From: a virus
Strand: one strand, 5' to 3'
Virus record (IMG/VR): IMGVR_UViG_3300032246_001967
Coordinates: 1-64,000 of that record
DNA length: 64,000 nucleotides
Below, one piece after another: positions 17,578 to 37,679 of the stretch; position 1 is the stretch's first letter; every line of letters begins with the position of its first letter. A program made the translations under genes and the position numbers. Under the pieces are notes generated by a model. The model did not search any database, had not been told where the DNA came from, and saw only the letters and a program-made list of their open reading frames with translations.

Positions 17578-17943
17578 ATGAAAAGACAAATACTTTCTGA
17601 AGAATTCCAGCGTATGCAAAAACTAGCTGGTATAATTACTGAGTCTGAAGATTCTTTTGGTCCTAATAGCATTTCTACATTTGCTAATGAACATTTTGAT
17701 GAAATTCAAAATATGTTTGGTAAACTTCGTGGTGGTAAATTTGAAGGTTTTACAAACAATAGAGGTATTGAAGTAGCATTTATTGGTACTGATGAAGATG
17801 ATGGGATGGATATATCTTTTGATCCTAAATTTGAAGAGATGTCAGACATATATAATGATATAGAACCAGTTGAAATAGCTGGTAAAACAGTTTATGTAAA
17901 TGATTATCTTAATCATAATTTAGATAATGAAGATGAAGATTAA
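17578..17943 (+). CDS. Hypothetical protein with capsid-targeting-type leader
   Basis: A 121-aa acidic protein. Residues 1-24 contain FQRMQKLAGIITE, ending in an I-x-E site. RMQKLAGI recurs as RWQKLAGI at the extreme C-terminus of the gp22-like core protein (46.4 kb), which links this protein to the prohead interior. The body (FANEHFDEIQNMFGKL, then FIGTDEDDGMDISFDP) is unrecognised. It forms a single-gene unit between a nonamer and a strong terminator. Confidence 0.6.
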   Translation: MKRQILSEEFQRMQKLAGIITESEDSFGPNSISTFANEHFDEIQNMFGKLRGGKFEGFTNNRGIEVAFIGTDEDDGMDISFDPKFEEMSDIYNDIEPVEIAGKTVYVNDYLNHNLDNEDED

Positions 17944-17966
17944 TAAATAAAAAATATTTTAAAATT

Positions 17967-17995
17967 AAGCTTGGTTCGCCAAGCTTTCTTTTTTA
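17967..17995 (+). terminator. Rho-independent terminator
   Basis: The 8-bp perfect stem AAGCTTGG / CCAAGCTT (17967-17974 with 17979-17986) has a TTCG tetraloop, followed by TCTTTTTT. Confidence 0.85.
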
Positions 17996-18013
17996 TATTA
18001 CGGTTATGTTCAA

Positions 18014-18022
18014 TATTTATGA
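18014..18022 (+). promoter_or_regulatory. Late-type nonamer variant TATTTATGA
   Basis: It ends 3 nt before the ATG at 18026. One base differs from the consensus. Confidence 0.35.
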
Positions 18023-18025
18023 TTG

Positions 18026-18631
18026 ATGGATAAAAAAACTAATATATATTACTTGCATAATGGTGATAATATTCCTTTTTATATAGGAAAAACAGTTCAA
18101 AACCCATCAAAACGATTAAATAATCATAAAAAAGTTTTTGGAAATAATACATTATTAGAAGTTATAGATATAGTTGAAAATAATAATTGGTTATTTTGGG
18201 AAAAACATTATATTTCTTTATTTAAATCTTGGGGTTTTAATCTAGAAAATAAAAATGAAGGTGGAGGAGGATGTATAACTCATGAAGTATCAGAATCTGC
18301 TAGAGAAAAAATAAGTAAAACTCATAAAAATCTTAAAAAACCATTTACTGAGTCTCATAAAATAAACCATCAAAAGTCTTATGAGAACAGAAATGTAACT
18401 TGGGGAAATAAAATATCAGAAGGATTAAAAGGTAGAAAAATAACATGGGAACAAGGAAATGTAGGAAAACCATCTTCACCAATCAACCAATATGATTTAG
18501 AGGGAAATTTTATTAAAAAATGGGATAATATAAAAGATCCTTCTTTAATTTATAAATGTTATATAAGTGGTTGTCTTAAAGGAAGGCAAAAAACAGCCGG
18601 AGGTTATATTTGGAAATATGCAAATAAATGA
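18026..18631 (+). CDS. GIY-YIG homing endonuclease with NUMOD-type DNA-binding motifs
   Basis: A 201-aa protein. The catalytic domain is at the N-terminus: NIYYLHNGDNIPFYIGKT with Arg in NPSKRLNNHK and a later Glu in FWEKHYI. The C-terminal half has a NUMOD3-like segment (KISEGLKGRK) and a NUMOD1-like segment (INQYDLEGNFIKKWDNI), the DNA-recognition modules of free-standing homing endonucleases. The ATG at 18026 is preferred over an in-frame TTG at 18023. The 3' end overlaps the primase gene by 14 nt, so it looks inserted right at the primase start. Confidence 0.8.
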   Translation: MDKKTNIYYLHNGDNIPFYIGKTVQNPSKRLNNHKKVFGNNTLLEVIDIVENNNWLFWEKHYISLFKSWGFNLENKNEGGGGCITHEVSESAREKISKTHKNLKKPFTESHKINHQKSYENRNVTWGNKISEGLKGRKITWEQGNVGKPSSPINQYDLEGNFIKKWDNIKDPSLIYKCYISGCLKGRQKTAGGYIWKYANK

Positions 18632-19550
18632 ATCATTAGTAGCATTAGTTAATTCAATTTTAGGAACAGGTAAATCTACTGCTAAAGGAAATAAATCATA
18701 TACCTGCCCAAAATGTAATCATCATAAACCTAAATTAGAAATTAATTTTGATATTACATCTCCCCATTATCAAAAATTTGCTTGTTGGGCTTGTGGTTTT
18801 AAAGGTAAAAAAATTATTCAATTATTTAAACAAGTTAAAGCATCACCAAATGCTCTTTTAGAATTAAGATCTATTGTTAAAACTGAAACTGCTGAAAAAA
18901 AAGAAATAACAACAGAAAAAGTTGAGTTACCAAAAGAATTTCAACCATTAATTAATATATCTAAATCAAATATTATAGGAAGACACGCTTTAGCATATTT
19001 AAAATCCAGAAATATTACTGAAGAAGATATTTTAAAATATAATATCGGTTATTGTGAATCAGGACCTTATAGAAATATGGTTGTTATTCCTTCATATGAT
19101 GCTGATGGTAGATTAAATTATTTTACAGGTCGTTCATTTGAAAAAGAAGCTAAAGTAAAATATAAAAACCCAACTGTATCACGTGATATTATACCATTTG
19201 AGTTGTTTATAAATTGGGATATACCGTTTATATTATGCGAAGGACCATTTGACGCCATTGCTATTAAAAGGAATGTTATCCCGTTACTAGGCAAAAATAT
19301 ACAAACAAAACTAATGAAGAAGATAGTAATGTCTTCTGTTGATAAAATATATATAGCCCTTGACCGGGATGCTCAAAAACAAGCTTTATCCTTCTGTGAG
19401 CAATTAATGAATGAAGGTAAAGAAGTATATTTAGTAGATATGCAAGATAAAGACCCAAGTGAAATGGGCTTTAAAAATTTTATTAATTCAATTTCAGAGA
19501 CTTACCCCTTAACACTCTCAGGCTTACTTGAGAAAAAATTATTTTTATGA
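18618..19550 (+). CDS. DNA primase (gp61 / DnaG type, zinc finger plus Toprim)
   Basis: A 310-aa primase starting at the ATG at 18618 (a longer frame to 18567 would add a non-conserved leader). A zinc ribbon has Cys at 30, 33, 56 and 59 (CPKC ... CWAC). The Toprim domain shows CEGPFDAIAI (207-216), ALDRDA (247-252) and DKDPSEMG (277-284), supplying the acidic metal ligands. It synthesises RNA primers for lagging-strand replication. No helicase is in the window. It overlaps the nuclease gene that follows by 4 nt. Confidence 0.85.
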   Translation: MQINESLVALVNSILGTGKSTAKGNKSYTCPKCNHHKPKLEINFDITSPHYQKFACWACGFKGKKIIQLFKQVKASPNALLELRSIVKTETAEKKEITTEKVELPKEFQPLINISKSNIIGRHALAYLKSRNITEEDILKYNIGYCESGPYRNMVVIPSYDADGRLNYFTGRSFEKEAKVKYKNPTVSRDIIPFELFINWDIPFILCEGPFDAIAIKRNVIPLLGKNIQTKLMKKIVMSSVDKIYIALDRDAQKQALSFCEQLMNEGKEVYLVDMQDKDPSEMGFKNFINSISETYPLTLSGLLEKKLFL

Positions 19551-20320: not shown

Positions 20321-20342
20321 CTTATTTTTGTTATATTTATGA
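20308..20342 (+). promoter_or_regulatory. Early-type promoter fused with a late-type nonamer variant
   Basis: TTTG at 20308-20311, then exactly 19 nt, then TTATATTT at 20331-20338; the same bases continue as TATTTATGA (20334-20342). It is the only site where both signals coincide. It ends 12 nt before the ATG at 20355 and begins inside the nuclease gene. Confidence 0.5.
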
Positions 20343-20354
20343 CAAAATATTTCC

Positions 20355-21113
20355 ATGATTGGACTGGTCTCTTTATTAAAAGAAATACAAGGTAAACCTA
20401 AAGCTATTTTTATGGCAGGTCCAGCAGGATCAGGGAAATCATTTATTGCTTCTAAATTAATTCCTTCAAATTTTAATATTATTAATAGTGATGACACTTA
20501 TGAGGAATTACTTAAAGCAACTGGTTTAGGATTAAAACAAAAAGATTTTACTCCAGACCAATTATCTCAGGCCGCTAAATTACAAACTGTAGCTAGAAAA
20601 GAAACAGATAAAAAGTATCAGGAACTTACTAAAAATTTACAAAATGTAGTTATTGATGGTACAGGTGCTGCTACTAAACCTTTATTAAAGAAAAAAGAAG
20701 AGTTAGAATCATTAGGTTATGATACGTTTATGGTTATGGCTTACGTTCCTGTATTAGTTTCATTAGAACGTAATATGCAGCGAGAAAGAAGCTTAATGCC
20801 AGGTATTGTGCTTCGAACTTGGCGTGATGTAAATAAAAATATAGACACATATAAACAAGCTTTTGATGATAGTATCGTAATTGTGAATACAAGCGATAAT
20901 AAAGATTTAAATGTATTTTCAAAAGATAAATTACAAAAATATTTTGAACAATCCAAAGCAGTTGGTAAACCAAAAACACCTGAAGAACAACAAAAAGCAC
21001 AAGCAGAAAGAGACCAATTGATATCTGATATTGAAAAAATGTCGGTTAAGTTTCCTACTACTGATACATTAGAACAAGCAAAAACAAAAATAACTAACTT
21101 TATAAACAAATGA
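20355..21113 (+). CDS. P-loop kinase, zeta-toxin/polynucleotide-kinase-like
   Basis: A 252-aa protein with Walker A GPAGSGKS (22-29), INSDDTYE (about 44), VVIDGTGA (Walker B-like, near 98) and Arg-rich lid helices around 135-155 (RNMQRERSLMPG). This is the fold of zeta-toxin/ATP-dependent small-molecule or polynucleotide kinases. The substrate is not readable. The first 11 residues (MIGLVSLLKEI) fit the leader type seen in this block. The C-terminal 60 residues are Lys/Gln-rich helix. It overlaps the next gene by 4 nt. Confidence 0.7.
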   Translation: MIGLVSLLKEIQGKPKAIFMAGPAGSGKSFIASKLIPSNFNIINSDDTYEELLKATGLGLKQKDFTPDQLSQAAKLQTVARKETDKKYQELTKNLQNVVIDGTGAATKPLLKKKEELESLGYDTFMVMAYVPVLVSLERNMQRERSLMPGIVLRTWRDVNKNIDTYKQAFDDSIVIVNTSDNKDLNVFSKDKLQKYFEQSKAVGKPKTPEEQQKAQAERDQLISDIEKMSVKFPTTDTLEQAKTKITNFINK

Positions 21114-21475
21114 AATTATTAGATTTATTAAACGAAATAGAAGAAGCAGAAAAAACTCATCTTGAACCAGTTGAAGAAGTTTACAAACCAATAGATGAAA
21201 TTGGTAAATTCTTTGTAGTTAAAAAACCTAAAAAAGGTATGACTAAAGAAGACCTTATGTATGAAGCAACTATCTTTGATAATATTATCCCTGAAGAAAC
21301 TCAAGGTGTATATAAACAAAAATCTGATGCTTCTAGAATAGCAACTGAAGCTTTTAAAGCGTATGAAGCTCAATTAGAAGAAATGGAATCAGCAATGAAT
21401 GATTTCCGTTCTGCTAAAAAAGATATTGAGGAAAAGAAAAAGGTTGCTAAAGAAAAAATAATGAAATTAAGATAA
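21110..21475 (+). CDS. Small coiled-coil protein with capsid-targeting-type leader
   Basis: A 121-aa, highly charged protein. The first ten residues (MKLLDLLNEI) end in an L-x-E site. The C-terminal half is a long charged coiled coil (EAQLEEMESAMNDFRSAKKD ...). There is no enzymatic motif. It overlaps the kinase by 4 nt and the 865-aa multidomain gene by 1 nt. A packaged DNA- or partner-binding protein would fit, but that is inference. Confidence 0.55.
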   Translation: MKLLDLLNEIEEAEKTHLEPVEEVYKPIDEIGKFFVVKKPKKGMTKEDLMYEATIFDNIIPEETQGVYKQKSDASRIATEAFKAYEAQLEEMESAMNDFRSAKKDIEEKKKVAKEKIMKLR

Positions 21476-24072
21476 TGTCTGAAATAACAGAATCTTTATT
21501 AAAAGAACTGTTAGATGAGCCAATAACAGTAGCCATTTATGGTGGTGGTTTTAAACCTCCTACCAAAGGTCATTTTCTTGTAGTTGAAAAAGCATTACAA
21601 GAATTCCCTGAAATAGATGAATTAAAAATTTTTGTAGGTGGAGGAGTTAGAGATGGTATTACTCAAGATGAATCTATTAAAGTATGGGAAATTTATAAAC
21701 CCTACCTTTCAGATAAAATAGATATTGAAGCTTCTGTAGCCCCTGTTAAATCAGTTTTAGGATATGCTAAAGACCATCCTGAAGAAAAAGTTTATTGGAT
21801 TTTAGGCGCTCGTGAAGGTGATGAAGAAGATTTAAAAGATATTGAAAATAGAACTAAATCTTTATCTAAATACCCAAATATTGAAGTAAAAATTATCACT
21901 ACAGCTGGTGGTGTAAGTGGAACTAAAACCAGAGCCGCTATTAAATCAGGAAATAAAGAACAATTTTTCCATTTAATTCCAGACGTAAAAGAAAAAGAAG
22001 AAATCTGGAACATATTATCACCAGTAGTTAAAGAAGAATTAACTGAAGGTCGTTATGATTCATTAACTAGAACAGTTGTAAATGATATCTTAAACGATTG
22101 GAAATTACAATTTGATGGTGAAAATAGCGATTTAGAATTTGAAGAAGATTATGAAATGACAAATTCTAAAGGCGAACCTATTAATTTTGAACTTTATGCT
22201 GTTTTAAGAGTTAAAGAGACAAGTAATCATATTTACAAAGTAGATGGTGGTGCTGATCCTTTAAGAGATCCTGCTTATTTAGAAGTAAAATTTCAAGTAG
22301 ATCCTAGAGACTTACCTCAAAAATGGGAAGACATTTATATGGATTTAACTGATGTAGTTAGACATGAGATAGAACATATGACTCAACAGGGTACTAATGT
22401 TATTCCTTCTAAAAAAATGGAAGATGATGAGATACTAAGAAATCTTATTAATTTAAAATTATTACCTAAATCAGATTACTTCAGATTAGAACAAGAAATA
22501 GATGCTATGCTTCAAGGTATGTATTTGAAAGCTAAAAAATCTAAAACACCGTTTAAAGATGTAATCAATGATTATTTTGATAAAGTAAAATTATCAAAAA
22601 AAGATAGACAAGATATTTTATCTATTTGGAAAAATAGAGCTAAAGCTTTATCTTTACCTTTAAATGAAATTGGTGATGCAAGTGCTAAAGTATATCCTTT
22701 TACATCTAATAAATCACTTAAACAAATAATGGATAAGGCTATTGATTTTAAAAACCACGATCATATTTATCCATATTATTCTGATAATATTTTATATACA
22801 TTTGATACAGAAAAAGCCAGGTATCTTGTAGAAATATTAATCGACATGGAGATAATATCAAATACAAACTCAGCAAATAATCCTAACGAAAAATCAGAGC
22901 CATTATTTAATACAACATCCCAAGTTATTTTTACTACTGAAGGAAACCCAGGAGATGAAATTACTAATCTAAATGAACAGTACTCAGTTTTATCTACTAT
23001 TACTAAAATTATTTTAGAATTTGTTGAAGAATTTAATAAAAAAGGAGGAAATATAACCGCCGTTCAGATTGCTCCTAAAAGCGATAATGATAATTTATCT
23101 AAAATTGATTCAAAACGAGGAAAATTTTATACTGCTTATATTAAGAAGAATCTTTCAAAAGTTCCAGGATATAGTATTCGAGAAAAAACAAATTATGAGG
23201 GTCATGAATATATTGAAATCTATAAAACTAATAGTATAAATGAATTAGACAAGTCAAATCTCAAATCAATTAGTCAAAAAATTGATAGTTTACCTCAAGG
23301 TAAATTATTTGATGATGCTAAAAATATAGAAAGTATTTTTAATAAAAGTAAACATAGTTGGAACGAAACAATTGAATCTTTTGAAAAAAATAAAGATAAA
23401 GGTAAAGAACAATATGTTAATATAAACGATATTCATATTACTCAACCTAATATTCAGAGTAATAAGGTAAAAAATATGATTAAAAATATTGATAAATTAC
23501 CTGTTATTAATGTTGTTGAATTTCCTGATGGTGAAAAAGTGATTTATGATGGACACCATAGACTTATAGCTAATTGGGCTTTAGGGAATGAAAAAATCAA
23601 AGCAAACTTAGTTAAAATTGACAAATTAAAAGAAAATGATCCTTTTGGTATTAAGGCTTATGCTCGTGAATTAGTAAAAGAAACTTTTAAAAAAGATTGG
23701 AATCTTAAAGAAGGGATGTTATCTTTATCTAAGTATATGATTGACAATGGAATGAATATCAAACCATTGCCTAAAATAAAGGTTATAGATAACGACGCTG
23801 AAAATGCTTCTAATCTTTTGGGCAAAACAGCTTATTACAATCCTGCTGATAAGTCTATTACTTTATTCACTATGAATAGACACCCAAAAGATATTTTAAG
23901 ATCATTTGCCCACGAAATGGTTCATCATGAACAAAATTTAGATGGTCGATTAAATAATATAGCAACTCAAAATACAAACGAGGATGGTGATTTACCTGAA
24001 ATTGAAAGAGAGGCTTATGAAAAAGGAAATATGATGTTAAGAAATTGGGAGGATAATATAAAAAATGTATAA
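21475..24072 (+). CDS. 865-aa multidomain protein: nucleotidyltransferase, zincin, unknown module, ParB-like, zincin
   Basis: Visible segments, in order: a leader (SLLKELLDE, to 15); a cytidylyl/NMN-adenylyltransferase-like domain (18-185) with FKPPTKGH (HxGH-type, 26-33) and VSGTKTR (147-153); a zinc metallopeptidase with HEIEH (297-301) and a downstream Glu (E341); a module starting NEIGDASAKVYPF (397-409) and reaching about 585; a ParB/sulfiredoxin-like segment with IYDGHHRLIANW (690-701); and a second zincin with HEMVH (813-817). L-x-E sites lie at several junctions (LTE/G 191, LNE/I 398, LKE/G 747). The composition recalls the polyvalent proteins of phages and plasmids. Individual domain calls are motif-based; the module at 397-585 is unassigned. 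Confidence 0.75.
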   Translation: MSEITESLLKELLDEPITVAIYGGGFKPPTKGHFLVVEKALQEFPEIDELKIFVGGGVRDGITQDESIKVWEIYKPYLSDKIDIEASVAPVKSVLGYAKDHPEEKVYWILGAREGDEEDLKDIENRTKSLSKYPNIEVKIITTAGGVSGTKTRAAIKSGNKEQFFHLIPDVKEKEEIWNILSPVVKEELTEGRYDSLTRTVVNDILNDWKLQFDGENSDLEFEEDYEMTNSKGEPINFELYAVLRVKETSNHIYKVDGGADPLRDPAYLEVKFQVDPRDLPQKWEDIYMDLTDVVRHEIEHMTQQGTNVIPSKKMEDDEILRNLINLKLLPKSDYFRLEQEIDAMLQGMYLKAKKSKTPFKDVINDYFDKVKLSKKDRQDILSIWKNRAKALSLPLNEIGDASAKVYPFTSNKSLKQIMDKAIDFKNHDHIYPYYSDNILYTFDTEKARYLVEILIDMEIISNTNSANNPNEKSEPLFNTTSQVIFTTEGNPGDEITNLNEQYSVLSTITKIILEFVEEFNKKGGNITAVQIAPKSDNDNLSKIDSKRGKFYTAYIKKNLSKVPGYSIREKTNYEGHEYIEIYKTNSINELDKSNLKSISQKIDSLPQGKLFDDAKNIESIFNKSKHSWNETIESFEKNKDKGKEQYVNINDIHITQPNIQSNKVKNMIKNIDKLPVINVVEFPDGEKVIYDGHHRLIANWALGNEKIKANLVKIDKLKENDPFGIKAYARELVKETFKKDWNLKEGMLSLSKYMIDNGMNIKPLPKIKVIDNDAENASNLLGKTAYYNPADKSITLFTMNRHPKDILRSFAHEMVHHEQNLDGRLNNIATQNTNEDGDLPEIEREAYEKGNMMLRNWEDNIKNV

Positions 24073-26755: not shown

Positions 26756-27375
26756 TGGAACTTTTAGGAATGATAACAACTATAGTAGTAGCTCTAATTA
26801 CAGCAGTAATTGGACCTATAGTTATGGAATGGGTAAAAGCTAAATTAGCTAAAAAAGAAGAAAAAATATCAACTGTAAAAGAAGCAATTGATTTAAATGC
26901 TTTAGTTGATGGACAATTAGATCAAATGATGGATGAATTAGGATGTGATAGAATCTGGATCGCCCAATTCCATAATGGTGGTCATTTTTATCCTACAGGA
27001 AAATCAATCCAAAAATTTTCTTTTTTCTATGAAAAATTAACACCTAACACTCAGGCTATTCAACATGTTTTCCAACAAATTCCTGTTTCCTTATTTCCTA
27101 AAGCATTAGCTAAATTGTATAAAGACGGAGAATTAGCTATTCCAAGTTATAAAGATACTGAAACTTATGATTTAGAAGTATTTGCTCGTGATTACGGTAC
27201 TAAATCTTTTTATATGATTGCAATAGATGATTTGGATGAACATTTCATTGGAGTTATGGGTATATCATTTAATGATAAAGAACATAAATTATCCAAAGAA
27301 GAATGGATATTTATAAGACAGAAAGTGGGTGCTATTGGCTCATTATTAACAGATTATTTATATAAGAAAAAATGA
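26755..27375 (+). CDS. Membrane-anchored GAF-like domain protein
   Basis: A 206-aa protein with one N-terminal membrane helix (LGMITTIVVALITAVIGPIV), a Lys-rich cytoplasmic flank, and a globular domain in which CDRIWIAQFHNGGHFYPTGK and FIGVMGISFN are spaced like the first and last strands of a GAF sensor domain. GAF domains bind small ligands such as cyclic nucleotides. No output domain follows. Holin-like or superinfection-exclusion roles cannot be excluded, but the length of the soluble domain argues against a simple holin. Confidence 0.6.
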   Translation: MELLGMITTIVVALITAVIGPIVMEWVKAKLAKKEEKISTVKEAIDLNALVDGQLDQMMDELGCDRIWIAQFHNGGHFYPTGKSIQKFSFFYEKLTPNTQAIQHVFQQIPVSLFPKALAKLYKDGELAIPSYKDTETYDLEVFARDYGTKSFYMIAIDDLDEHFIGVMGISFNDKEHKLSKEEWIFIRQKVGAIGSLLTDYLYKKK

Positions 27376-28121
27376 AAGACGCTCAAAAAATAAAAGAATT
27401 TTTCTCTAAACCTTTACAAGAAGAATCAAGAAACATTAGTAACATTAAAAAGAAATTAGATGCTTTAGGTGTTAAATATGAAATGTCTACTACTGATAAA
27501 GTTAGACCATTTAAAGTAATATACAAACCAATCAATAAATCAGATGAATTTTATGATAAGTTTAATGATATAGTTGATTTATTTAATTTAAAAGGTGTTG
27601 TAAAATCATCAATGAATGAAGCTAAAGAAGAAGATGCCGTTGATACAATTACAATGGATATTCCTTTATTCCTTCGTATGTTAGAATATTCAAGAGAAGA
27701 TGCTGCTCAAGATGTAGATTTACATGATGTTACTGAAAAAGCAAATACATTAGGTAAAGAAAGAGGTATCTTACAAATGGATGATTATGATGAGATTGTA
27801 GGTGCTGCTGAAGATAAAATTGAAGAAGCAGTTAACTTAAAAGCATCTAAATTATCAACTTCTGAATATCAAAAAGCTAAAAAATTAAAAGATTTTAAAG
27901 CAAGCGATTGGAAGTATGATTCTAAAGAAGATTTATATATTAAATCAGTTAAAGAAGCTACTGACTATATGAAACGTAGAAAAGCTATGGATGATTATGC
28001 CGCTAGTAAAAAAGATAAACCTGCCAAATTATATAATCCAAATCCTTCAGGTAAAACTGATTATATGAAACGTAGACAAAAAGATTTAGCTGAGGCAATT
28101 TTATCTAAATTAAAAAAATAA
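27372..28121 (+). CDS. Modular hypothetical protein with duplicated TDYMKRR motif
   Basis: A 249-aa charged protein starting with a leader-type segment (KIKEFFSKPLQEE). Residues 78-82 (SSMNEA) give a second L/M-x-E-like junction. The middle segment (about 92-155: DTITMDIPLFLRMLEYSRED ... LHDVTEKA) is a compact helical module that I associate with a family scattered across phage proteins. TDYMKRRKAMDDYA and TDYMKRRQKDLAEA repeat near the end. Its function is unknown. It overlaps the GAF-like gene by 4 nt. Confidence 0.55.
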   Translation: MKDAQKIKEFFSKPLQEESRNISNIKKKLDALGVKYEMSTTDKVRPFKVIYKPINKSDEFYDKFNDIVDLFNLKGVVKSSMNEAKEEDAVDTITMDIPLFLRMLEYSREDAAQDVDLHDVTEKANTLGKERGILQMDDYDEIVGAAEDKIEEAVNLKASKLSTSEYQKAKKLKDFKASDWKYDSKEDLYIKSVKEATDYMKRRKAMDDYAASKKDKPAKLYNPNPSGKTDYMKRRQKDLAEAILSKLKK

Positions 28122-28141: not shown

Positions 28142-28705
28142 ATGAAAAAATTTGACTTAAGAAAGATGATAGCTGAAAATAAGGCTACATTTTTTGCTTC
28201 AATAAACGAAGGTGAAGCTGCTTATGAATACGAAAAAGGTAAAGAAGCAGGTGAAGCCATTGAAAAGAAAAAAATGAAAAAATCAGAATTAAAAGCTAAA
28301 ATCAAAGAAATGATTGTAGCTGAAATGGACGGTCCTGCTGTGGTTGATTCAGAATATGATTTCTTAAAAGAAATTGAAAATATGTTAGAAGCTGATGAAG
28401 AAGCTGATGCTGATATTGAAGCAGCAGATGATACCACAGGTGAAGACACTACAGCTGGTGAAGAAGTAGATACTACAGTAGATGTTTCTACAGATGAAGT
28501 TGATCCTAATATTAAAGCTGTACAAGATGCTTTAACTCAAGCACAAGCAGCAGCACAACAATTAGGTGATCCTAAATTAATGGACCAAATTGGTAACACA
28601 ATCACTTTCTTTACTCGCTCACACGTAGTTGAAAAACCAGGTGCCGCAGTAGCAGAAAATATTAATGAGTCTATGTTCCCAATGTTAAATAAAATTTTAA
28701 AATAA
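28142..28705 (+). CDS. Acidic hypothetical protein with leader-type N-terminus
   Basis: A 187-aa protein. The N-terminus reads MKKFDLRKMIAENKATFFAS then INEGE, with an I-x-E site, and an internal MKKSELKAKIKEMI (residues 49-62) is a second leader-like block. Then comes a highly acidic, Thr-rich low-complexity stretch (about 85-120) and a C-terminal helical domain (NIKAVQDALTQAQAAAQQLG). The acidic stretch may act like the acidic core/scaffold regions. Its function is unknown. Confidence 0.55.
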   Translation: MKKFDLRKMIAENKATFFASINEGEAAYEYEKGKEAGEAIEKKKMKKSELKAKIKEMIVAEMDGPAVVDSEYDFLKEIENMLEADEEADADIEAADDTTGEDTTAGEEVDTTVDVSTDEVDPNIKAVQDALTQAQAAAQQLGDPKLMDQIGNTITFFTRSHVVEKPGAAVAENINESMFPMLNKILK

Positions 28706-28711: not shown

Positions 28712-28882
28712 ATGAACACAACAGAAATTTTTGAAAAAATTGAGATGTTATTTGAAGAATTTAAAGCAGAACATGCTAAAACTACAAAAGCAGCTCACGG
28801 TCGTGCTAGAAAAACTTTAGGTGAAATCAAGAAATTGGTTACCGAGTACAGAAAAGCATCTATCGAGGAAGATAAAAAATAA
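28712..28882 (+). CDS. Hc1-like histone H1-type DNA-binding peptide (56 aa)
   Basis: A short frame encodes 56 residues: an acidic helical N-terminus (FEKIEMLFEEFKAEH) followed by a Lys/Arg/Ala segment, TTKAAHGRARKTLGEIKKL, and a Lys-rich tail. This is the layout of the Hc1-like histone family that is common in Bacteroidota (a helix, then GTRARKAL-EIKKL). It would bind and bend DNA. It overlaps the next start by 1 nt (TAATG). Its position amid the leader-bearing genes suggests a role in packaged or newly injected DNA. It has no leader itself. Confidence 0.75.
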   Translation: MNTTEIFEKIEMLFEEFKAEHAKTTKAAHGRARKTLGEIKKLVTEYRKASIEEDKK

Positions 28883-30324
28883 TGACCAAAAAAGATCTTC
28901 AAAAGGTATTAAAGGAGTTCTTACTGAAAAGTAAGAGCTCTCTTATTACTGAAGAAACTTTAACACAAGCACAATTAGACAAAAGACAGGATTACTTAAA
29001 AGATTTAATGAAACAAAAAAGTAATCTTGTTAAAAGATATAAAGGCGAAGCTGAAAAAGTAGCCTATGGTCGCGCAACAAACATGGCTAAAAAAGCAGTA
29101 TCAGAAATGAATAAACAAAAATTAAAAGAATTAGTTAAATCTTCATTAATGAAGGAAGACAATAATGAATCATCAGCATTATTTAATGATCTTGAACAAA
29201 AACTAAAATCCCACGATTGGTATTACTATATGTCTGATGATAATAGAGCATACTCAAAGGGTTCAGCCCAACAATCTGAAATTCGTAAAATAATTAAAGA
29301 TTTAGAAAGTATGGGTCAAGGTCAAGAAGCTAAAGATTTATATAACAAATATGCTCCTTATAGAGAAGGTGGTCCTGATCTAAGAATGAAAGAAGATAAA
29401 AAATCATTTCCTGATTTAACAGGTGATGGTAAAGTAACTAAAGCAGATATTTTAAAAGGTAGAGGAATTGATTTAGATGAAGATATTGATTTAGGTCATC
29501 AAGATAATGAACCTCATATGGTTAAAGCTGAACTTTACCAAATTGGTAAATACGCTATGGAATTATATAGTTGGTTAGAAGAAATGGAAGAAACAGGTGG
29601 TGAATATGATTTTCCTGCTTGGTGGCAAGCAAAAATAACTACTGCCAAAGAAAACATTTCAGGAGCTAAACATTATTTAGAGTTTGAATTACAAGAACCT
29701 CAAATTGATGCTACTGTAGATGCTATGACTGGTGAAGAACCTCATGAAGGTGAACCAATGATGGAAGATGAAATTGGTAAAGATGAAGAATTAGCTGGAA
29801 GATTATATAAAATGAAAAATTTTGTTCAACCTGCTTTCTTTAAGAAAATCAGAGGTTTAATTAATTCTGGTGATTTAGAAACAGCTGAATTTTTTATTAA
29901 AAGAATGGAACCAGCAGCCGCTAAAAACGATTTAGAAATGGCTAAATTAAAAGGTGATTTAGAAGATATTGACGCTGTAATTGCTCAACGTAAAAGAGAA
30001 AAACAATTTGCCAATGTGTTCGCTGAAACTATTTCTAAAAAATTAAAAGAAACTTCATACCCTTGGGATAAATGTATTGCTGATAGAAAAGAAGAAGGTA
30101 AATCTGAAGAAGACGCTAAAAAAATATGTGGTTCTATTAAGGCAAAAAATAATGAAGGTATTGAAGAAAAGAAATTAACTACTGCTGAAAAAAATAAAAA
30201 AGAAGAAATAGTTAAATCTTTGAAAAAATCAGGAATGAAAAAAGATCCTAAAATGTATGCTATTGCTACTGCTAAAGCAGAAAAAGTTGCAGAAAATATA
30301 GTTAAAAAATTAAAAAATGACTAA
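28882..30324 (+). CDS. 480-aa modular protein with leader, Ca-loop and Cys motifs
   Basis: The protein looks like a chain of small modules: a leader (MTKKDLQKVLKEFLLK ... SLITEE, to ~25); a coiled coil (25-90); a DLTGDGKVTKADILKGRG loop (about 172-190, EF-hand/dockerin-like); a helical module with YAMELYSWLEEMEETGG and DFPAWWQAKI (about 220-275); a helical repeat; a short Cys module, WDKCIADRKEEG ... AKKICG; and a Lys-rich end. I believe each module recurs in other phage proteins in other orders. L-x-E sites fall between several of them. No enzymatic motif. Overlaps the next gene by 8 nt. Confidence 0.6.
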   Translation: MTKKDLQKVLKEFLLKSKSSLITEETLTQAQLDKRQDYLKDLMKQKSNLVKRYKGEAEKVAYGRATNMAKKAVSEMNKQKLKELVKSSLMKEDNNESSALFNDLEQKLKSHDWYYYMSDDNRAYSKGSAQQSEIRKIIKDLESMGQGQEAKDLYNKYAPYREGGPDLRMKEDKKSFPDLTGDGKVTKADILKGRGIDLDEDIDLGHQDNEPHMVKAELYQIGKYAMELYSWLEEMEETGGEYDFPAWWQAKITTAKENISGAKHYLEFELQEPQIDATVDAMTGEEPHEGEPMMEDEIGKDEELAGRLYKMKNFVQPAFFKKIRGLINSGDLETAEFFIKRMEPAAAKNDLEMAKLKGDLEDIDAVIAQRKREKQFANVFAETISKKLKETSYPWDKCIADRKEEGKSEEDAKKICGSIKAKNNEGIEEKKLTTAEKNKKEEIVKSLKKSGMKKDPKMYAIATAKAEKVAENIVKKLKND

Positions 30325-30811
30325 AAACGAACTAAAAGATAAAATCAAAGCTCTAGTTAAACAGGTGTATACAAAAGATACGCCTGTTGATCTAGACTCT
30401 GATATTCATATTGACCTTGATGCGGATGCATTTCCTGTGTTAGGTAAGTTCCCTGATTTAAAACAGATTATAGTCGATTTATTTACAAAACAATACGAAT
30501 TATTTATATCAGATATTCAGTGGGTTGCACCTAAACCTACTACTTTTAGAATAATATTAGCTAATGGTGAGTCATTTTTCTTACATTACACACCAAGAAG
30601 CTGGGTTGCTACTATTGAAGGTAAAAAATATTATCTTGCCTCTTTAGGTGAAGAAGAGCAAGCAGTTCAAACATTAGCAAGAATTTTATCTTATGGCCAA
30701 AAAACAGAAACCACAGAAGCAGGCACCGAAGAAGCAGGAGCAGAAACCGGCGCCGAAGAAACAGGGCAAGAAGAAGTAGCACCTGAAGAAACACCAGCAG
30801 AAGAAGCATAA
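30317..30811 (+). CDS. Hypothetical protein with leader and acidic Ala/Glu tail
   Basis: A 164-aa protein. The leader is MTKNELKDKIKALVKQVY. Residues 25-125 appear to be one alpha-beta domain (FRIILANGESFFLHYTPR ... KKYYLASLGEEEQAV). The C-terminal ~35 residues are a Glu/Ala/Thr low-complexity tail. No family recognised. It overlaps the preceding gene by 8 nt and is separated by 2 nt from the next. Confidence 0.55.
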   Translation: MTKNELKDKIKALVKQVYTKDTPVDLDSDIHIDLDADAFPVLGKFPDLKQIIVDLFTKQYELFISDIQWVAPKPTTFRIILANGESFFLHYTPRSWVATIEGKKYYLASLGEEEQAVQTLARILSYGQKTETTEAGTEEAGAETGAEETGQEEVAPEETPAEEA

Positions 30812-30813: not shown

Positions 30814-32022
30814 ATGAATGAAATAGATTTATTTTTAAAAAAATACAGTTACAAATTCCCTAAAGGATATCCTGATATGAATAATAAACAGGATGTCTTA
30901 TTATTAGAATCCTTATTAAGAGAATTAGGTATTAATTTAAATGAAGGTAATCCTTCATCTAATACTAAAAAAGCAATTGAATTATTAGTTCAAAAATATC
31001 CTGATAAATTTGAAAAACAATCAAATATATATCGTTTGGCTAATAAGGCAAAAATCTCCCCTGAAGAATTTGTTGACATTATTAAAAAAGAATTTAATAA
31101 TGCTAATGTAAAAATCTCACCTCCAGGAACTCCTCCAAATGTTAAACCTTTTGGAAGTAAAAAATTTACTTTATATGAATTTGATACTGAAGATGGTTTA
31201 GTTAGAATATTATTATCTGGAGGTAGAGGTTCTAATTTAGGATTAGAATTTGAAGATAGAATATACAATGGATTAAAAGATGCAGCTGGTGAAGATATAA
31301 ATGATATTGAGGATCCTATTACTGTTAAAATTTTAAAAACATTAAATATTAATCCTAAAAATTTAGATCCTGAAAAAGTAGAATTAACCGGAGGTGAAGA
31401 TACAAAACGCCCTGTTAGTTTTGAAGGTCCAAAAGATAGAGGAAAAACAATTGCTGATATTTCATTAGTTTATAATAATATTCCTTATTATTTGTCTATT
31501 AAAAATGTAGCTGGTAGTGGAATATACAATGGTGGAGTTATACCTGGTATTGTTTATAATAAAGATAAAACAGCTATAGAATTTAATCAATCGGCTTATG
31601 AGTCTGATGAATTTAAAAGTAACTTTTTGAAAGCATTTGGTGTTGATCCTAAAAAAATAGTTGAGGGAATAAATAATTATTTAACTCAAACAGGTAATCC
31701 TACATCATATGAACCTTCAACAGGTAATTTAGATGAAGTTAAAAAATTAATAGGATCTGGTTTAGATTATGGTTATTATTATATTAGACAACTAGGAAAA
31801 GACGATGTTAAAATATACAATATAACATCTGCTGAGGATACCTACAAATTAATAGGAGAACCTACTTCTATAGAAATAAAATACCCAGGTGTTAATACAA
31901 AATCAACCACAGTAAAAGTATCTTTAAAAGATTCAGTATTAGGTTTAAATAGAATTGAAATACAAATCAGAAATGCTAGTGGAGGAGAAGATAGACCTGT
32001 AATTAAAATGACAGTATTTTAA
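30814..32022 (+). CDS. Hypothetical protein, possible restriction-nuclease fold
   Basis: A 402-aa protein. The N-terminal ~110 residues are helical (LLLESLLRELGINLNEGN, with an L-x-E site at the junction). The central part has an order suggestive of a PD-(D/E)XK fold: GLEFEDRIYNGL (early Glu), GKTIADISLVYNN (Asp) and YYLSIKN (Lys, with Ser in place of Glu). The missing canonical Glu makes activity uncertain. The C-terminal portion is beta-rich. The nuclease reading is only a candidate. Confidence 0.45.
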   Translation: MNEIDLFLKKYSYKFPKGYPDMNNKQDVLLLESLLRELGINLNEGNPSSNTKKAIELLVQKYPDKFEKQSNIYRLANKAKISPEEFVDIIKKEFNNANVKISPPGTPPNVKPFGSKKFTLYEFDTEDGLVRILLSGGRGSNLGLEFEDRIYNGLKDAAGEDINDIEDPITVKILKTLNINPKNLDPEKVELTGGEDTKRPVSFEGPKDRGKTIADISLVYNNIPYYLSIKNVAGSGIYNGGVIPGIVYNKDKTAIEFNQSAYESDEFKSNFLKAFGVDPKKIVEGINNYLTQTGNPTSYEPSTGNLDEVKKLIGSGLDYGYYYIRQLGKDDVKIYNITSAEDTYKLIGEPTSIEIKYPGVNTKSTTVKVSLKDSVLGLNRIEIQIRNASGGEDRPVIKMTVF

Positions 32023-32033: not shown

Positions 32034-32687
32034 ATGGATTTAAAGCAATTAGTTAAGGAAGTATTAGCAGGTAAAGATTGTTGCACAGCATCAAAACCTA
32101 CTAAAGCGCCTATATTAAATGAAAATTTAGCTCCGCGTGAGATATTATCTGAGGGGTTAAAATATCATATAGACAATAAAAAACCGCTTACTGAGCATTT
32201 GTATCGTGCAGGTTCAACAGAATATTTTAATTTATGGTCAGAAGCAAGATCATTATATGTTAGAGGTATCCTGAATTTTTCAGGTGATGATTTAGATATT
32301 TTAACAGAAACCGATTTAGGTGAATTTACTATTATTAATGGTAAAAAAACACCTTTAGATTTTATTTTTGAAGAAATTGATGAAGAATTAGATGAAGCTA
32401 AAAAATCTAAAAAGAAAAATCCTCCATTAAATAAACCTCATCGTGGTGGTTCTAAGAAATTTTATGTTTATGTAAAAGATCCTAAAACTAAACGTATTAA
32501 AAAAGTATCATTTGGTGCTCAAGGTATGTCTGCTAAGATTAATAATCCTAAAGCAAGACAAGCATTTTCTAAACGTCACAACTGCCCTCAGAAAAACGAT
32601 AAAACTAAAGCTTCATATTGGTCTTGTCGCCTCCCCTCTTACGCTAAGCTTCTAGGATTAAAATCCAATTTTACAGGATATTGGTAG
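32034..32687 (+). CDS. Modular protein with leader and conserved basic Cys-containing C-terminal domain
   Basis: A 217-aa protein. The leader (MDLKQLVKEVLAG) is followed by PILNENLAPREILSEGL with two L-x-E sites. The C-terminal ~85 residues form a basic domain (GGSKKFYVYVKDPKTKRIKK ... KRHNC ... SYWSCRLPSYAKLLGL) that I believe is shared by many marine-phage proteins. Conserved Cys and Trp suggest a small folded nucleic-acid- or metal-binding module. Its function is unknown. Confidence 0.6.
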   Translation: MDLKQLVKEVLAGKDCCTASKPTKAPILNENLAPREILSEGLKYHIDNKKPLTEHLYRAGSTEYFNLWSEARSLYVRGILNFSGDDLDILTETDLGEFTIINGKKTPLDFIFEEIDEELDEAKKSKKKNPPLNKPHRGGSKKFYVYVKDPKTKRIKKVSFGAQGMSAKINNPKARQAFSKRHNCPQKNDKTKASYWSCRLPSYAKLLGLKSNFTGYW

Positions 32688-32713: not shown

Positions 32714-32719
32714 TGGAAT

Positions 32720-33346: not shown

Positions 33347-33355
33347 CAAATTGTA

Positions 33356-33745
33356 ATGGATAAACTTACAGATATATTAAGAGAAATTCTTGAAGAAGAA
33401 AAAAAGAAAGAAGATCGTTGTAAACGTATTGCTGATCGTAGATATGATAAACCATCTGCTTATAAATCTGGTGCTATTGTTAGATGCAGAAAAGGAGATA
33501 TTTGGAAAGATATTAAAGAAGAAGAATTAAATGAAGATGAAACTCTTCATAAATGGTTTAAACGTTCTGGTCCAAAAGGTAAAGAAACAGGTTGGGTAGA
33601 TTGTAATGCTCCTGATGGAAAAGGAGGTTATAAAGCTTGTGGTAGAAAAGAAGGTGAAAAACGTTCTAAATACCCTGCTTGTAGACCAACTCCTTCTCAA
33701 TGTAAATCAAAAGGTAAAGGTAAAAATTGGGGTAAAACAAAATGA
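33356..33745 (+). CDS. Leader plus Cys-module plus DUF5872-like domain protein
   Basis: A 129-aa protein with three parts: a leader (MDKLTDILREILEEE), a Cys module (DRCKRIADRRYDKPSAYKSG ... VRCRKG, to ~52) and, after LNE/D, a DUF5872-like domain (LHKWFKRSG ... GWVDCN ... KACGRKEGEKRSKYPACRPT). All are short, basic, Cys-rich modules. Their function is unknown. The modular order with an L-x-E joint suggests processing in the prohead. It overlaps the next gene by 4 nt. Confidence 0.6.
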   Translation: MDKLTDILREILEEEKKKEDRCKRIADRRYDKPSAYKSGAIVRCRKGDIWKDIKEEELNEDETLHKWFKRSGPKGKETGWVDCNAPDGKGGYKACGRKEGEKRSKYPACRPTPSQCKSKGKGKNWGKTK

Positions 33746-33984
33746 TTAAATTACAGAATATAATCACTGAAAATTATGGTGGTAAGGGTGAAATGGTTTT
33801 ACCCCCAAATCATAAAGCAGGTTTAAAAGTACCTAAAGGAGGTTCTTGTTGTGCTAATTGTAAATGGTGGGATAAAGAAAATCAAGTTTGCACTAGTACT
33901 TATTATGCAGAATGGGCAGGAACTAATAAAATTCCTTATGCCGCAGATGAATATTGTACTAACTGGTGGGAACCTATAAAATGA
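33742..33984 (+). CDS. Small Cys-rich protein with leader
   Basis: An 80-aa protein. The first ten residues (MIKLQNIITE) are nearly the layout of the T4 internal-protein pro-peptide (MKTYQEFIAE). After the I-x-E site comes a small domain with Cys at GGSCCANCKWWD, VCTSTYY and EYCTNWWEP, which could be a metal-binding knuckle. An iron-sulphur or zinc identity cannot be decided by eye. It overlaps neighbours by 4 nt on both sides. Confidence 0.6.
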   Translation: MIKLQNIITENYGGKGEMVLPPNHKAGLKVPKGGSCCANCKWWDKENQVCTSTYYAEWAGTNKIPYAADEYCTNWWEPIK

Positions 33985-34250
33985 GACCCTATAAAGATTT
34001 ACAAGTAACAAAAGAATATATCATCAGAGAATTTGATGAAAACATTGACCCAATAGAGTTAATGTGGCATCGTGATAATGAAGACAGAATAGTTGAAATC
34101 ATAGAACCAGGAAATGGTTGGAAATTTCAATTCGATAATGAGTTACCTTGGGATCTTGAGCCTAAAATGTCAATATGTATATTACGACATGAATGGCATC
34201 GTGTTATTAAAGGAACAGGAAATTTAAAATTAAAAATATATAAATCGTGA
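33981..34250 (+). CDS. Conserved small phage protein, cupin-like beta barrel
   Basis: Start at the ATG at 33981 (ATGA overlap) is preferred over the longer frame from 33966; it gives 89 aa. The sequence has LMWHRDNEDRIVEII, GWKFQFDNELPW and ILRHEWHRVIKGTGNL, in a small all-beta layout resembling a minimal cupin, with His residues in WHRD and EWHR. Its function is unknown. It has no leader. Overlaps on both sides place it in the same cotranslated unit. Confidence 0.6.
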   Translation: MRPYKDLQVTKEYIIREFDENIDPIELMWHRDNEDRIVEIIEPGNGWKFQFDNELPWDLEPKMSICILRHEWHRVIKGTGNLKLKIYKS

Positions 34251-34885
34251 ATAATTTTGACTTAAAAGCATATTTAGCATCCCAAAAATTATTTGAAGCA
34301 GAACAACCTTCAGATGAAATTGAATTAGATCAATTAGATAAAGAAATCAGTTCAGCATTTGCTTCTGGCTTATCAGCTTTACAAGGGCAAACAACAGATA
34401 TTAAAGAACAAATAGAAGAAGCAGATATTCAATTAAATGAAGCTGTTGGTTCATTAATTATATCTTTATTATTATCAGCTCCTAAATTATTAGAAATAAT
34501 TGGAGGAATGGTTAAAAAAGTAGCTACTAAATTTGCTAAAGAAAAAGGAAAAGTAACATCAGGTGATGCTTTTATTCATGCTGGTCATTATTTAGAAGGA
34601 AAATATTTAAGTCTTCTTAAAAAGATTATTAAAGTTACAGGTATTGCTAGAAAAGCAAACATTAAAACAGATGCTGAATTAGAAACAGCAGCTAAAGTAT
34701 TACTTTATTCTGTTTTAGGAATGGCGGCTGTATCTGCTGGTGTTGCTTCCGCGGAATCAATTGGAGGATTTATAGCTGGTAAAGGAGTAGGAACAGCTAT
34801 TTATGGTGTTGCTAAAGGTGGATTAGCAGGTTTAAAAAGTACAGAAATAATTCAAGGTATTAAAGCGTTAGACGCTAAAATATAA
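34247..34885 (+). CDS. Hydrophobic hypothetical protein with leader (GTG start)
   Basis: A 212-aa protein. Start is GTG at 34247 in a GTGA overlap. Leader-type N-terminus (NNFDLKAYLASQKLFEAEQ), an acidic helical region, then hydrophobic stretches near 67-85 (AVGSLIISLLLSAPKLLEII) and 150-190 (VLLYSVLGMAAVSAGVASAE ... AIYGVAKGGLAGL). The last could insert in membranes, as in T4-type ejection proteins that form channels. No family recognised. Followed by a structured RNA segment and a terminator. Confidence 0.55.
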   Translation: MNNFDLKAYLASQKLFEAEQPSDEIELDQLDKEISSAFASGLSALQGQTTDIKEQIEEADIQLNEAVGSLIISLLLSAPKLLEIIGGMVKKVATKFAKEKGKVTSGDAFIHAGHYLEGKYLSLLKKIIKVTGIARKANIKTDAELETAAKVLLYSVLGMAAVSAGVASAESIGGFIAGKGVGTAIYGVAKGGLAGLKSTEIIQGIKALDAKI

Positions 34886-34891
34886 ATTATA

Positions 34892-34921
34892 GACTGATTC
34901 ATAGCCAGTCGCTCGTAAGAG
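34892..34921 (+). other. Structured segment between gene end and terminator
   Basis: GACTG (34892-34896) pairs with CAGTC (34906-34910), and CTC (34912-34914) pairs with GAG (34919-34921). The unpaired AT-rich link leads into the terminator stem. It may be a 3' UTR fold or a small RNA. Confidence 0.35.
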
Positions 34922-34938
34922 ATAAAAATATGGTAGCT

Positions 34939-34970
34939 GTGGCACCCCTAAAAAGGTGCCACTTTTAATT
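34939..34970 (+). terminator. Rho-independent terminator
   Basis: Perfect 8-bp stem GTGGCACC / GGTGCCAC (34939-34946, 34955-34962) with loop CCTAAAAA, then TTTTAATT. The same loop occurs in the terminator at 45217. Confidence 0.85.
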
Positions 34971-34999
34971 TGGAAAATTAGATAAAGTACATTATATTA
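34969..34999 (+). promoter_or_regulatory. Early-type promoter (TTTG-N19-TTATATTA)
   Basis: TTTG at 34969-34972, 19 nt, TTATATTA at 34992-34999. The ATG of the FAD oxidoreductase follows 11 nt later. It begins at the end of the preceding terminator. Confidence 0.6.
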
Positions 35000-35010
35000 A
35001 AACGTTAAAT

Positions 35011-36363: not shown

Positions 36364-36364
36364 G

Positions 36365-36395
36365 TTTGGCAATTTGGAATAATTTTGTTATATTA
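36365..36395 (+). promoter_or_regulatory. Early-type promoter (TTTG-N19-TTATATTA)
   Basis: TTTG at 36365-36368, 19 nt, TTATATTA at 36388-36395. The ATG at 36401 follows 5 nt later, so a transcript would have essentially no leader. Flanks AAGTTTGGC also match the site at 1133. Confidence 0.6.
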
Positions 36396-36400
36396 ATATC

Positions 36401-36643
36401 ATGAATACGAAGTATCAACCAAGTAAAAAATTAACTAAAGCTGATGGAACAGTTGCTTATGTTTGGGAAGGCAAATTACATAACTGGGAAGGTCCAGCTT
36501 TAATTACTTCTGAAGGTAAAAAAGAATATCACATTCATGGTATTAAGTATACTCATGATGGTTGGAAAGAAGCAAGACGTAATCGTGAAGGTTTACCTTG
36601 GTATAAAACAGCTATGGGTCAAGCAGGTCAAAATAGAAACTAA
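36401..36643 (+). CDS. Small WxGPA-type beta-hairpin protein
   Basis: An 80-aa basic protein with the repeat-like phrase KLHNWEGPALITSEGKKEYH then IHGIKYTHDGW. I associate a similar motif (LH-x-x-GPA-x-x-x-x-DG-x-KEWW-x-NG) with many small phage proteins of unknown function. It is the first gene of an early-type unit with the kinase 2 nt downstream. No enzymatic motif visible. Confidence 0.55.
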   Translation: MNTKYQPSKKLTKADGTVAYVWEGKLHNWEGPALITSEGKKEYHIHGIKYTHDGWKEARRNREGLPWYKTAMGQAGQNRN

Positions 36644-36645
36644 TT

Positions 36646-37176
36646 ATGAAGATAGGTTTATGTGGAACAATGAGTGTAGGTAAAACTACATTAGTTAATG
36701 CATTGAAGGAATTACCTGAATTTGCTGATTATAATTTTGCAACTGAACGTTCAAAATATTTACGTGATTTAGGTATTCCTTTGAATACTGATTCAACATT
36801 AAAAGGTCAATTTGTATTTTTAGCTGAACGTTGTGCTGAATTAATGCATGAAAATATTATTACAGATAGAACTGTAATTGATGTTATGGCATTTACTAAA
36901 TCAGCTAAATCAATTGATTATAATGACGCTGAAGCATTTTGTGATGCTGCTTATAAATTGATTAATGAATATGATTATATATTTTATATATCTCCTAATG
37001 GTATAGAAATGGAAGATAATGGTGTTCGTGAAACTGATTTAAAATATAGAGAATTAATTGATTTTACTATTAAATTATTAGTTTATAGAAGCCATCATAA
37101 AATTAAAAATTATACTGAACTATCAGGTACAACTGAAGAACGTATTAAAAAAATTAAAGAGACAATTTTTGGATAA
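36646..37176 (+). CDS. NadR-kinase-like P-loop protein (AAA_28 type)
   Basis: A 176-aa protein with Walker A GTMSVGKTT (7-15), an acidic turn FATERSKYLRDLGIP (Glu plus Arg), IITDRTVIDVMAF as the Walker B-like strand with Asp, and a lid-like DLKYRELIDF region. This is the small-ATPase layout of the ribosylnicotinamide kinase half of NadR and related AAA_28 proteins. Nucleoside kinase or NAD-precursor kinase activity is possible; the sequence does not fix it. It lacks a leader, and follows the 80-aa gene by 2 nt. Confidence 0.7.
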   Translation: MKIGLCGTMSVGKTTLVNALKELPEFADYNFATERSKYLRDLGIPLNTDSTLKGQFVFLAERCAELMHENIITDRTVIDVMAFTKSAKSIDYNDAEAFCDAAYKLINEYDYIFYISPNGIEMEDNGVRETDLKYRELIDFTIKLLVYRSHHKIKNYTELSGTTEERIKKIKETIFG

Positions 37177-37185
37177 TATTTATAA
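37177..37185 (+). promoter_or_regulatory. Late-type nonamer TATTTATAA
   Basis: Exact match, starting at the end of the kinase stop and 2 nt before the ATG at 37188. Confidence 0.5.
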
Positions 37186-37187
37186 TC

Positions 37188-37679
37188 ATGAAAAAATCTG
37201 ATTTAGAAAAAGAAATTAAAGAATATATCGTTGAAATTTTATCTGAAGAAACTATTCAAGAAGAAGATCCTCAAGTTAAAAAAATAAATGATAAAATTCA
37301 AAAAGATCCTGAATTCTTAAAGAAAACAAAAGAAGCAATGGCTAAAGCTGAAAAAGGTGATACTACAGATTTGGCTATGCTTATGGGTGGATTTGGTAAA
37401 ATGTTTGAATCAGAAGATGAAGATAGAGAACCTACTAAAGCTGAATTAGAAAAAGAAAAAGTAAAAGGTGCTCCATCTAAATTTAAAGTACCAAATGATC
37501 AATTTGAAGACTTTAAAACAAAATTAAAAACTTTAGTTAAAAAAATTAAAGACATGGAAAAAGGAGCAGAACGTGATAAGAAAATGGCTGCCCTTAAACA
37601 ATTTATCAAGAAACCTGAATTAGTTAAAGCGTTTAAAGAAAGAGACGTTGAAATTAATACTGGTGGTTTAGTAGGATAA
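37188..37679 (+). CDS. Helical hypothetical protein with leader
   Basis: A 163-aa highly charged protein with leader MKKSDLEKEIKEYIVEILSE (L-x-E at 19-20). The rest is Lys/Glu-rich helix, with a Met/Gly patch LAMLMGGFGKM near 62-72. No family recognised. It is the last clear leader-bearing gene before the packaging genes. Confidence 0.55.
   Translation: MKKSDLEKEIKEYIVEILSEETIQEEDPQVKKINDKIQKDPEFLKKTKEAMAKAEKGDTTDLAMLMGGFGKMFESEDEDREPTKAELEKEKVKGAPSKFKVPNDQFEDFKTKLKTLVKKIKDMEKGAERDKKMAALKQFIKKPELVKAFKERDVEINTGGLVG

Follow-up and report, generated by a model that had tools for sequence, protein, structure and literature searches.

In bacteriophage T4, propeptides of 10-19 residues target internal proteins to the prohead core and are cut after L/I-x-E, with leader residues 4 and 7 being important for targeting and residues 8 and 10 for processing (PMC9026906). 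These capsid-targeting sequences (CTS) are carried by IPI, IPII, IPIII and Alt, and are cut by the protease gp21 (PMC9026906, PMC3012670). Here we describe comparable N-terminal leaders in the virus record IMGVR_UViG_3300032246_001967 of IMG/VR (128,324 bases). The stretch analysed, referred to as the window, comprises bases 1-64000 of this record, and most of the leader carriers lie in a block at positions 17578-37679. An expanded, multi-class capsid-targeting system of the T4 type is the best explanation for these leaders, with a probability of roughly 0.78; the principle is known, and the variant is new.

As in the T4 CTS system, the leaders are short, N-terminal and end in (L/I)-x-E, unrelated protein bodies share a leader, and an S77 protease is encoded in the head gene cluster. 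The differences from T4 are the number of carriers (about 14-15 here, about 4 in T4) and the presence of at least five leader classes, none of which matches MKTYQEFIAE and one of which is a copy of the scaffold tail; some carriers, moreover, look polyprotein-like. Because the MKTYQEFIAE-type pattern has no match among the genes of this genome, the leaders would work like the T4 CTS without being the T4 CTS by sequence.

The T4-like cyanophages S-CREM2, S-SM1 and S-SZBM1 (PMC10665884, PMC3037559, PMC9146016) also have NMNAT/cytidylyltransferase-like and kinase-like proteins with a leader ending in LxE. Their leaders are of the T4 type (MKxFxxFLxE), unlike those described here, and the available portions of those reports do not point out a packaging signal; the NMNAT-like domains of the two groups are distant (24% over 123 amino acids, aa). 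The ejection proteins of phiKZ and SPN3US (PMC5694885) are likewise inner-head proteins with N-terminal propeptides that are thought to target the prohead and are removed by the prohead protease. Those propeptides are mostly longer than 100 residues and are associated with an S80 protease and SQE/ALE/TFE sites, whereas the leaders described here have 9-44 residues, a protease matching S77 and L/I-x-E sites, and the giant-phage combination of S80 protease and long propeptides was not found. In an open-access literature search, limited in number and therefore no proof of absence, we found no paper on the leaders of this clade and none naming CTS in cyanophages.

Leaders of the block and their classes

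The first-pass annotation of the window had listed 14 proteins as sharing one leader ending in (L/I)-x-E. All 14 open reading frames (ORFs) are present, that at 34247 with a GTG start codon, and in 13 of them an amphipathic leader at the N-terminus includes or ends in [LI]-x-E, the E being residue 9-30. The exception is 30317 (MTKNELKDKIKALVKQVYTKDT...), which has no LxE in its first 30 residues, as is also the case for the homologues examined. The idea of a single common motif was not borne out, since the leaders fall into at least five classes: class A (MKKSELKxxIKE...), class B (MIKLxxILxE), class C (MxNFDLKKYLAENKL...), class D (RMQKLAGIITE) and class E, a KGYPDMNN module of ~44 residues that occurs on 9 body clusters. 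Three carriers had been overlooked: 30814 (class E), whose leader also ends in the site, a class C gene at genome position 83964, outside the window, and 24065 (weak). All genes called in the window are on the + strand. The leaders are as follows:

5628-5711, + strand, class A-like leader MKPSEFKTLIKEAVREAFQEELKEILLE of ORF 5628-5999, outside the block and upstream of a gp25-like gene
17578-17643, + strand, class D leader MKRQILSEEFQRMQKLAGIITE of ORF 17578-17943, matching the scaffold C-terminal tail in sequence type
20355-20384, + strand, class B-like leader MIGLVSLLKE of ORF 20355-21113, a zeta-toxin/AAA-type kinase
21110-21136, + strand, class B leader MKLLDLLNE of ORF 21110-21475
21475-24072, + strand, leader MSEITESLLKELLDE (21475-21519) followed by a mosaic of domains
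27372-27422, + strand, leader MKDAQKIKEFFSKPLQE of ORF 27372-28121
28142-28210, + strand, class C leader MKKFDLRKMIAENKATFFASINE of ORF 28142-28705
28882-30324, + strand, class A-like leader MTKKDLQKVLKEFLLKSKSSLITE (28882-28953) and shuffled LxE-delimited modules
30317-30376, + strand, class A leader MTKNELKDKIKALVKQVYTK of ORF 30317-30811, no LxE site
30814-30945, + strand, class E leader of 44 aa (...KFPKGYPDMNN...LGINLNE) of ORF 30814-32022
32034-32153, + strand, leader with two tandem sites (...APILNE/NLAPREILSE/GLKYHIDN) of ORF 32034-32687, both sites recurring in relatives
33356-33397, + strand, leader MDKLTDILREILEE of ORF 33356-33745 (DUF5872)
33742-33771, + strand, class B leader MIKLQNIITE of ORF 33742-33984 (Cys-rich)
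34247-34297, + strand, class C leader MNNFDLKAYLASQKLFE of ORF 34247-34885 (hydrophobic body)
37188-37247, + strand, class A leader MKKSDLEKEIKEYIVEILSE of ORF 37188-37679

In the 20355 product, the match to Pfam Zeta_toxin begins at residue 12, directly past the leader. The leader of 27372 recurs on a different body in a relative (L056:967, MEDLKKIQEFFSKPINE), and the leader type of 5628 is found in gp114 of Flavobacterium phage immuto (hereafter Immuto), adjoining the Immuto baseplate gene. In an AlphaFold model of 37188, a predicted helix spanning residues 3-19 stops at the site, although confidence in this model is low (mean predicted local distance difference test score 44.7) and its fold was not used; the model of 30814 (mean 58.5, low overall confidence) has two leader helices before the body. 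The suggestion that most of the block encodes cargo was generous: leaders are carried by ~14-15 of the 29 genes, that is about half, covering ~55% of the bases, and the genes without a leader include a primase, an exonuclease, homing endonucleases, a flavoprotein and others.

Distribution of the leaders in the genome and in related phages

The virus is T4-related. Its nearest annotated phages, by capsid protein identity, are Immuto (53.5%) and Microcystis phage Mel-JY01 (48%), and its host is probably Flavobacterium-like, as judged from Immuto, whose own host is Flavobacterium sp. LMO8. Scanning viral contigs for the terminase provided a first set of 80 related loci with upstream genes, and another 80 loci, retrieved with the terminase of Immuto, were held out as a second set.

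An LxE with its E at residues 8-15 is present in 13 of 28 block genes and in 23 of 145 genes elsewhere (Fisher 7e-4), with a shuffle mean of 3.5 for the block. LxE near the N-terminus is nevertheless a poor test by itself, because the genes outside the block also exceed their shuffles (23 vs 13.7). As a predictor, LxE alone was rejected as non-specific on this ground and on that of the S-CREM2 virion comparison given below. Leader similarity, for which the first-pass annotation had proposed a statistical test across all genes of the phage, is above chance among unrelated block proteins: 29 N-terminal pairs scored at least 25, in comparison with 9 on average after shuffling (at most 15 in any of 30 shuffles), and no similarity above chance was seen at residues 31-55 (16 pairs vs 10.7, maximum 17) or at the C-termini (11 vs 8.5).

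Classes A-D were drawn up by inspecting the first 80 relatives, where 20 of 80 upstream families carry them (0-1 after shuffling). Since this set had defined the patterns, they were frozen and then applied to the held-out loci, Immuto having already been inspected before this test. Among the 34 held-out families without similarity to the first set or to the window, 12 carry a class, mostly class C in related phages, in comparison with 0.08 expected (at most 2 in 200 shuffles). The same frozen patterns are found in 9 of 29 block genes and 1 of 144 others in this genome (p=3e-7), a less clean comparison than the held-out one because the patterns were made after the window genes had been seen, and in 7 of 22 block genes and 2 of 205 genes elsewhere in Immuto (p=1e-6). 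None of the 181 genes in 50-kb stretches of three Bacteroidota phages without annotated gp21 (phi38:1, phi14:2 and crAss001) matches a class pattern. The leader classes are strong evidence, and LxE alone is weak evidence.

Leader boundary and exchange between bodies

In class C, LxE lies at an identical distance from the leader F in 42 of 57 distinct proteins. Between class C proteins with unrelated bodies, several non-selected leader columns are 80-100% identical, and identity drops to 9% in the column directly following the E. Both the E and the position two residues upstream of it belonged to the selection pattern, so that the sharpness of the boundary is argued from the other columns and from the 42/57 count. 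Leaders of classes C and E both occur on unrelated bodies. Conversely, homologous bodies carry different leaders. The class C body of 34247 has a class D homologue (L029, E=6e-7), and its wider family includes members with class D (L012, L025), class B (L148, L154, L156) and class A (Immuto gp095) leaders; class A/C and B/C swaps were also seen on other homologous bodies. Some of the body-homology links behind these swaps are weak (E about 1e-7) and others strong (down to 1e-60). On this comparison of sequences, the leaders are interchangeable among bodies.

At the gene or genes directly upstream of the terminase in loci L087-L164, a near-constant 25-aa class C leader (MADNFNLRSFLTENKLTKNAQLLKE) precedes bodies that vary by phage. 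The KGYPDMNN locus likewise has a constant leader and phage-specific bodies.

Prohead protease, scaffold and capsid protein

Downstream of the block, the genes follow a head gene order: terminase (38264), portal (39860), core genes, protease (44583), scaffold (45393) and capsid protein (46495). The products most relevant to the leaders are:

44583-45188, + strand, gp21-like prohead protease with propeptide sites LIE/T (residue 7) and LHE/G (residue 20)
45393-46466, + strand, gp22-like scaffold with C-terminal tail PIME/ANDQVARWQKLAGIK (about 46419-46463)
46495-48174, + strand, gp23-like major capsid protein, which has N-terminal LLE sites and T4-like capsid proteins as homologues

The gp21-like protease predicted at 44583 was confirmed by its match to Pfam Peptidase_S77 (1.5e-30; S80 match 0.0019, below the S80 cut-off). 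Its N-terminal LIE/T matches QLLIE/T of T4 gp21, and the second propeptide site, [LIF]xE[GS], is kept in 46 of 48 relatives. In the capsid protein, TGLLE/G is conserved in relatives and (I/L/M)LE/NQ is present in 34 of 36. By pattern, the scaffold tail xRWQKLAGIK is found in 38 of 42 relatives shortly after an LxE, which lies just upstream in each. Similar tails are present in the Mel-JY01 scaffold (ERMKKLAGIVK) and in an RM378 protein adjoining the capsid gene (ERIKRLAGL).

Class D is of the same sequence type as this tail and is found N-terminally, C-terminally (L033:6770, L047:843) or internally in other proteins. This identity of type suggests that class D may bind whatever the scaffold tail binds. 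The LAG(I/L) tail is kept from this clade to Mel-JY01 (L168:18875-19975) and the Rhodothermus RM378 protein (L170:1863-2711); T4 and cyanophage scaffolds have different C-terminal ends.

Given the S77 protease, the conserved sites in its expected substrates, the portable leaders with their sharp boundary at the E and the virion proteomes of related phages described below, the proposal of capsid-targeted cargo is well supported in so far as it predicts T4-like targeting by leaders that gp21 would cut.

Virion proteomes of related phages

The S-CREM2 report (PMC10665884) lists proteins detected by mass spectrometry (MS) in virions, including non-structural ones of NMNAT and kinase type; its authors state that carry-over into the virion preparation cannot be excluded. 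Comparing this proteome with the S-CREM2 genome, we found a strict T4-type leader in 5 of 27 MS-detected non-structural proteins and in 1 of 164 undetected ones (p=2e-4). The detected carriers are SAM (S-adenosylmethionine) hydrolase gp6, gp13, kinase gp14, gp136 and cytidylyltransferase gp154, and the undetected carrier is a 55-aa protein. The Cas9-like gp12 has a T4-type leader further in, ending near residue 25. The cytidylyltransferases S-SM1 gp190 and S-SZBM1 gp140, which start with MKKFSAFLNE and MRFRQFIIE, respectively, are also reported in virions (PMC3037559, PMC9146016). These data are evidence of virion presence and do not cover cleavage; they support the occurrence of T4-type leaders on non-structural proteins present in virions.

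A comparable block was observed in Methylophilales phage Melnitz (L167) and Pelagibacter phage HTVC008M (L169), with kinase, cytidylyltransferase, nucleotidase and other genes. Their leaders are of the T4 type, such as MQGFKTFLSEA, and the proteins are mostly annotated as hypothetical.

Cargo candidates and possible polyproteins

PHROGs, NCBIfam and Pfam named few of the bodies. Cargo candidates include the kinase at 20355, a nucleotidase-like protein at 24065, the DUF5872 protein at 33356 and many proteins without an assignment. The family of 30814 has E147, D215 and S228xK230 invariant among nine homologues. A PD-(D/E)xK-like nuclease would be a guess, and it stays so because confidence in the model is low and Foldseek against PDB gave no match below E 0.2.

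The long 21475 product is a mosaic with weak matches to NMNAT-like, peptidase-like and ParB-like domains, modules that recur separately elsewhere, and has internal sites at LTE/GRYD (residue 191), LNE/IGDASA (398) and LKE/GML (746). The 28882 product has LDE/DIDLGHQDNEP (residue 201) and IEE/KKLT (430). Such modules recur in other orders elsewhere, where GHQDNEP directly follows LxE in 12 of its 19 occurrences and KxLTKxEL in 5 of 5. In three relatives (L014:646, L037:962, L066:882), proteins open directly with M-L-N-E, which amounts to a cleavage site alone, and continue with a KxLTKxEL-type module.

Proposed mechanism and alternative explanations

We infer that each amphipathic leader would bind the prohead core (the gp22-like scaffold and its partners) during head assembly, so that the attached protein would be trapped inside the prohead. 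The gp21-like protease would then cut after (L/I)-x-E and release the cargo from the core, and the freed cargo would stay with the packaged DNA, presumably being ejected with it and acting early in infection. Classes A-E would serve one purpose and swap between cargo genes, class D acting by copying the scaffold C-terminal tail, and the internal LxE sites of long proteins would allow one polyprotein to give rise to several modules. A further proposal, whose chances we consider even, is that the leaders are modular address labels, one of them a scaffold-tail copy, that load fast-changing effectors, some as protease-released polyproteins, the bodies being replaced exactly at the future cut site. 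Such an arrangement would resemble toxin loci with a constant N-terminus and a variable C-terminus.

Several observations count against a capsid-targeting system. We found no virion proteome of this phage or its clade, and the S-CREM2 leader is of the T4 type, carried by no gene of this phage. In S-CREM2, LxE alone does not divide virion proteins from others (p=0.13), and the S-SZBM1 proteins 191 and 192, with T4-type leaders, are undetected, in a proteome that comprises only 30 proteins. The class patterns were defined by eye on the first relatives; the held-out set alone is clean, and its 12 families, from related phages, do not represent 12 independent origins. In class C the site is often followed by E, vs G/S/N at core sites, and 30317 has a leader without a cleavage site.

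The alternative that fares best, although unlikely, is that most of the leader proteins serve as structural components of the prohead core, comparable to T4 gp67/gp68: they would help to build or size the head, be chopped at LxE by gp21 and be largely expelled. It is consistent with the many LxE sites and the lack of a recognisable enzyme domain in 28142, 28882 and 37188, with class A-like leaders on core-region genes of relatives (e.g. Immuto gp072) and with a GHQDNEP module in a 42621-like core protein (L066:14384). However, the bodies include kinase, nucleotidyltransferase, peptidase-like and nucleotidase domains, and they differ even among close relatives that have kept the leader, whereas core parts would be expected to be conserved; cyanophage virions also contain NMNAT-like proteins that bear leaders of this sort. 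Some leader proteins may still be core components destroyed in the prohead and not delivered cargo.

Quite improbable is a different role of the leaders as amphipathic helices (oligomerisation, membrane or host-protein binding) with LxE incidental in a Lys/Glu-rich, AT-rich genome. The excess of N-terminal LxE over shuffles in the rest of the genome and the helix kept without a site in 30317 fit this idea, but composition fails to explain the classes (12/34 vs 0.08 in the held-out set, and 0/181 in AT-rich Bacteroidota phages), conservation stops exactly at the E, and E-type sites are likewise kept in the capsid protein, protease and scaffold. Least credible is that recently duplicated or recombined N-terminal coding sequence accounts for the shared leaders, which would then have no present function: a constant leader with a changing body at one locus does resemble recombination among related phages, but four unrelated leader types occur on homologous bodies, and columns such as -12 and -8 have amino acid identities of 1.00 and 0.90 vs codon identities of 0.79 and 0.70, a conservation despite third-position-diverged codons that indicates selection on the leader peptide.

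Under the capsid-targeting explanation, many 'hypothetical' genes of aquatic T4-like phages would become predicted virion cargo from sequence alone, and a test would be available for phage proteins that reach the host before any phage gene expression. Leader identity, including scaffold-tail mimicry, may specify head entry, and a reason is offered for the appearance of NMNAT-like enzymes, kinases and a Cas9-like protein in cyanophage virion proteomes.

Other features of the genome

Within the block, 28712-28882 encodes a 56-aa histone H1-like protein (Pfam Hc1, 1.2e-11) with no clear leader, possibly a packaged DNA-binding protein. Likely homing-type endonucleases are dispersed in the block, at 32720 (SegE GIY-YIG match), 25605 (weak HNH) and, by eye, 17067 and 18026. 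Outside the window, sequences resembling QueC, QueD and QueE are present at genome positions 88554, 90661 and 91134 (L002). Because Immuto is annotated with QueC/QueD/QueE plus DpdA, these sequences suggest that the DNA of this phage may carry a 7-deazaguanine modification.

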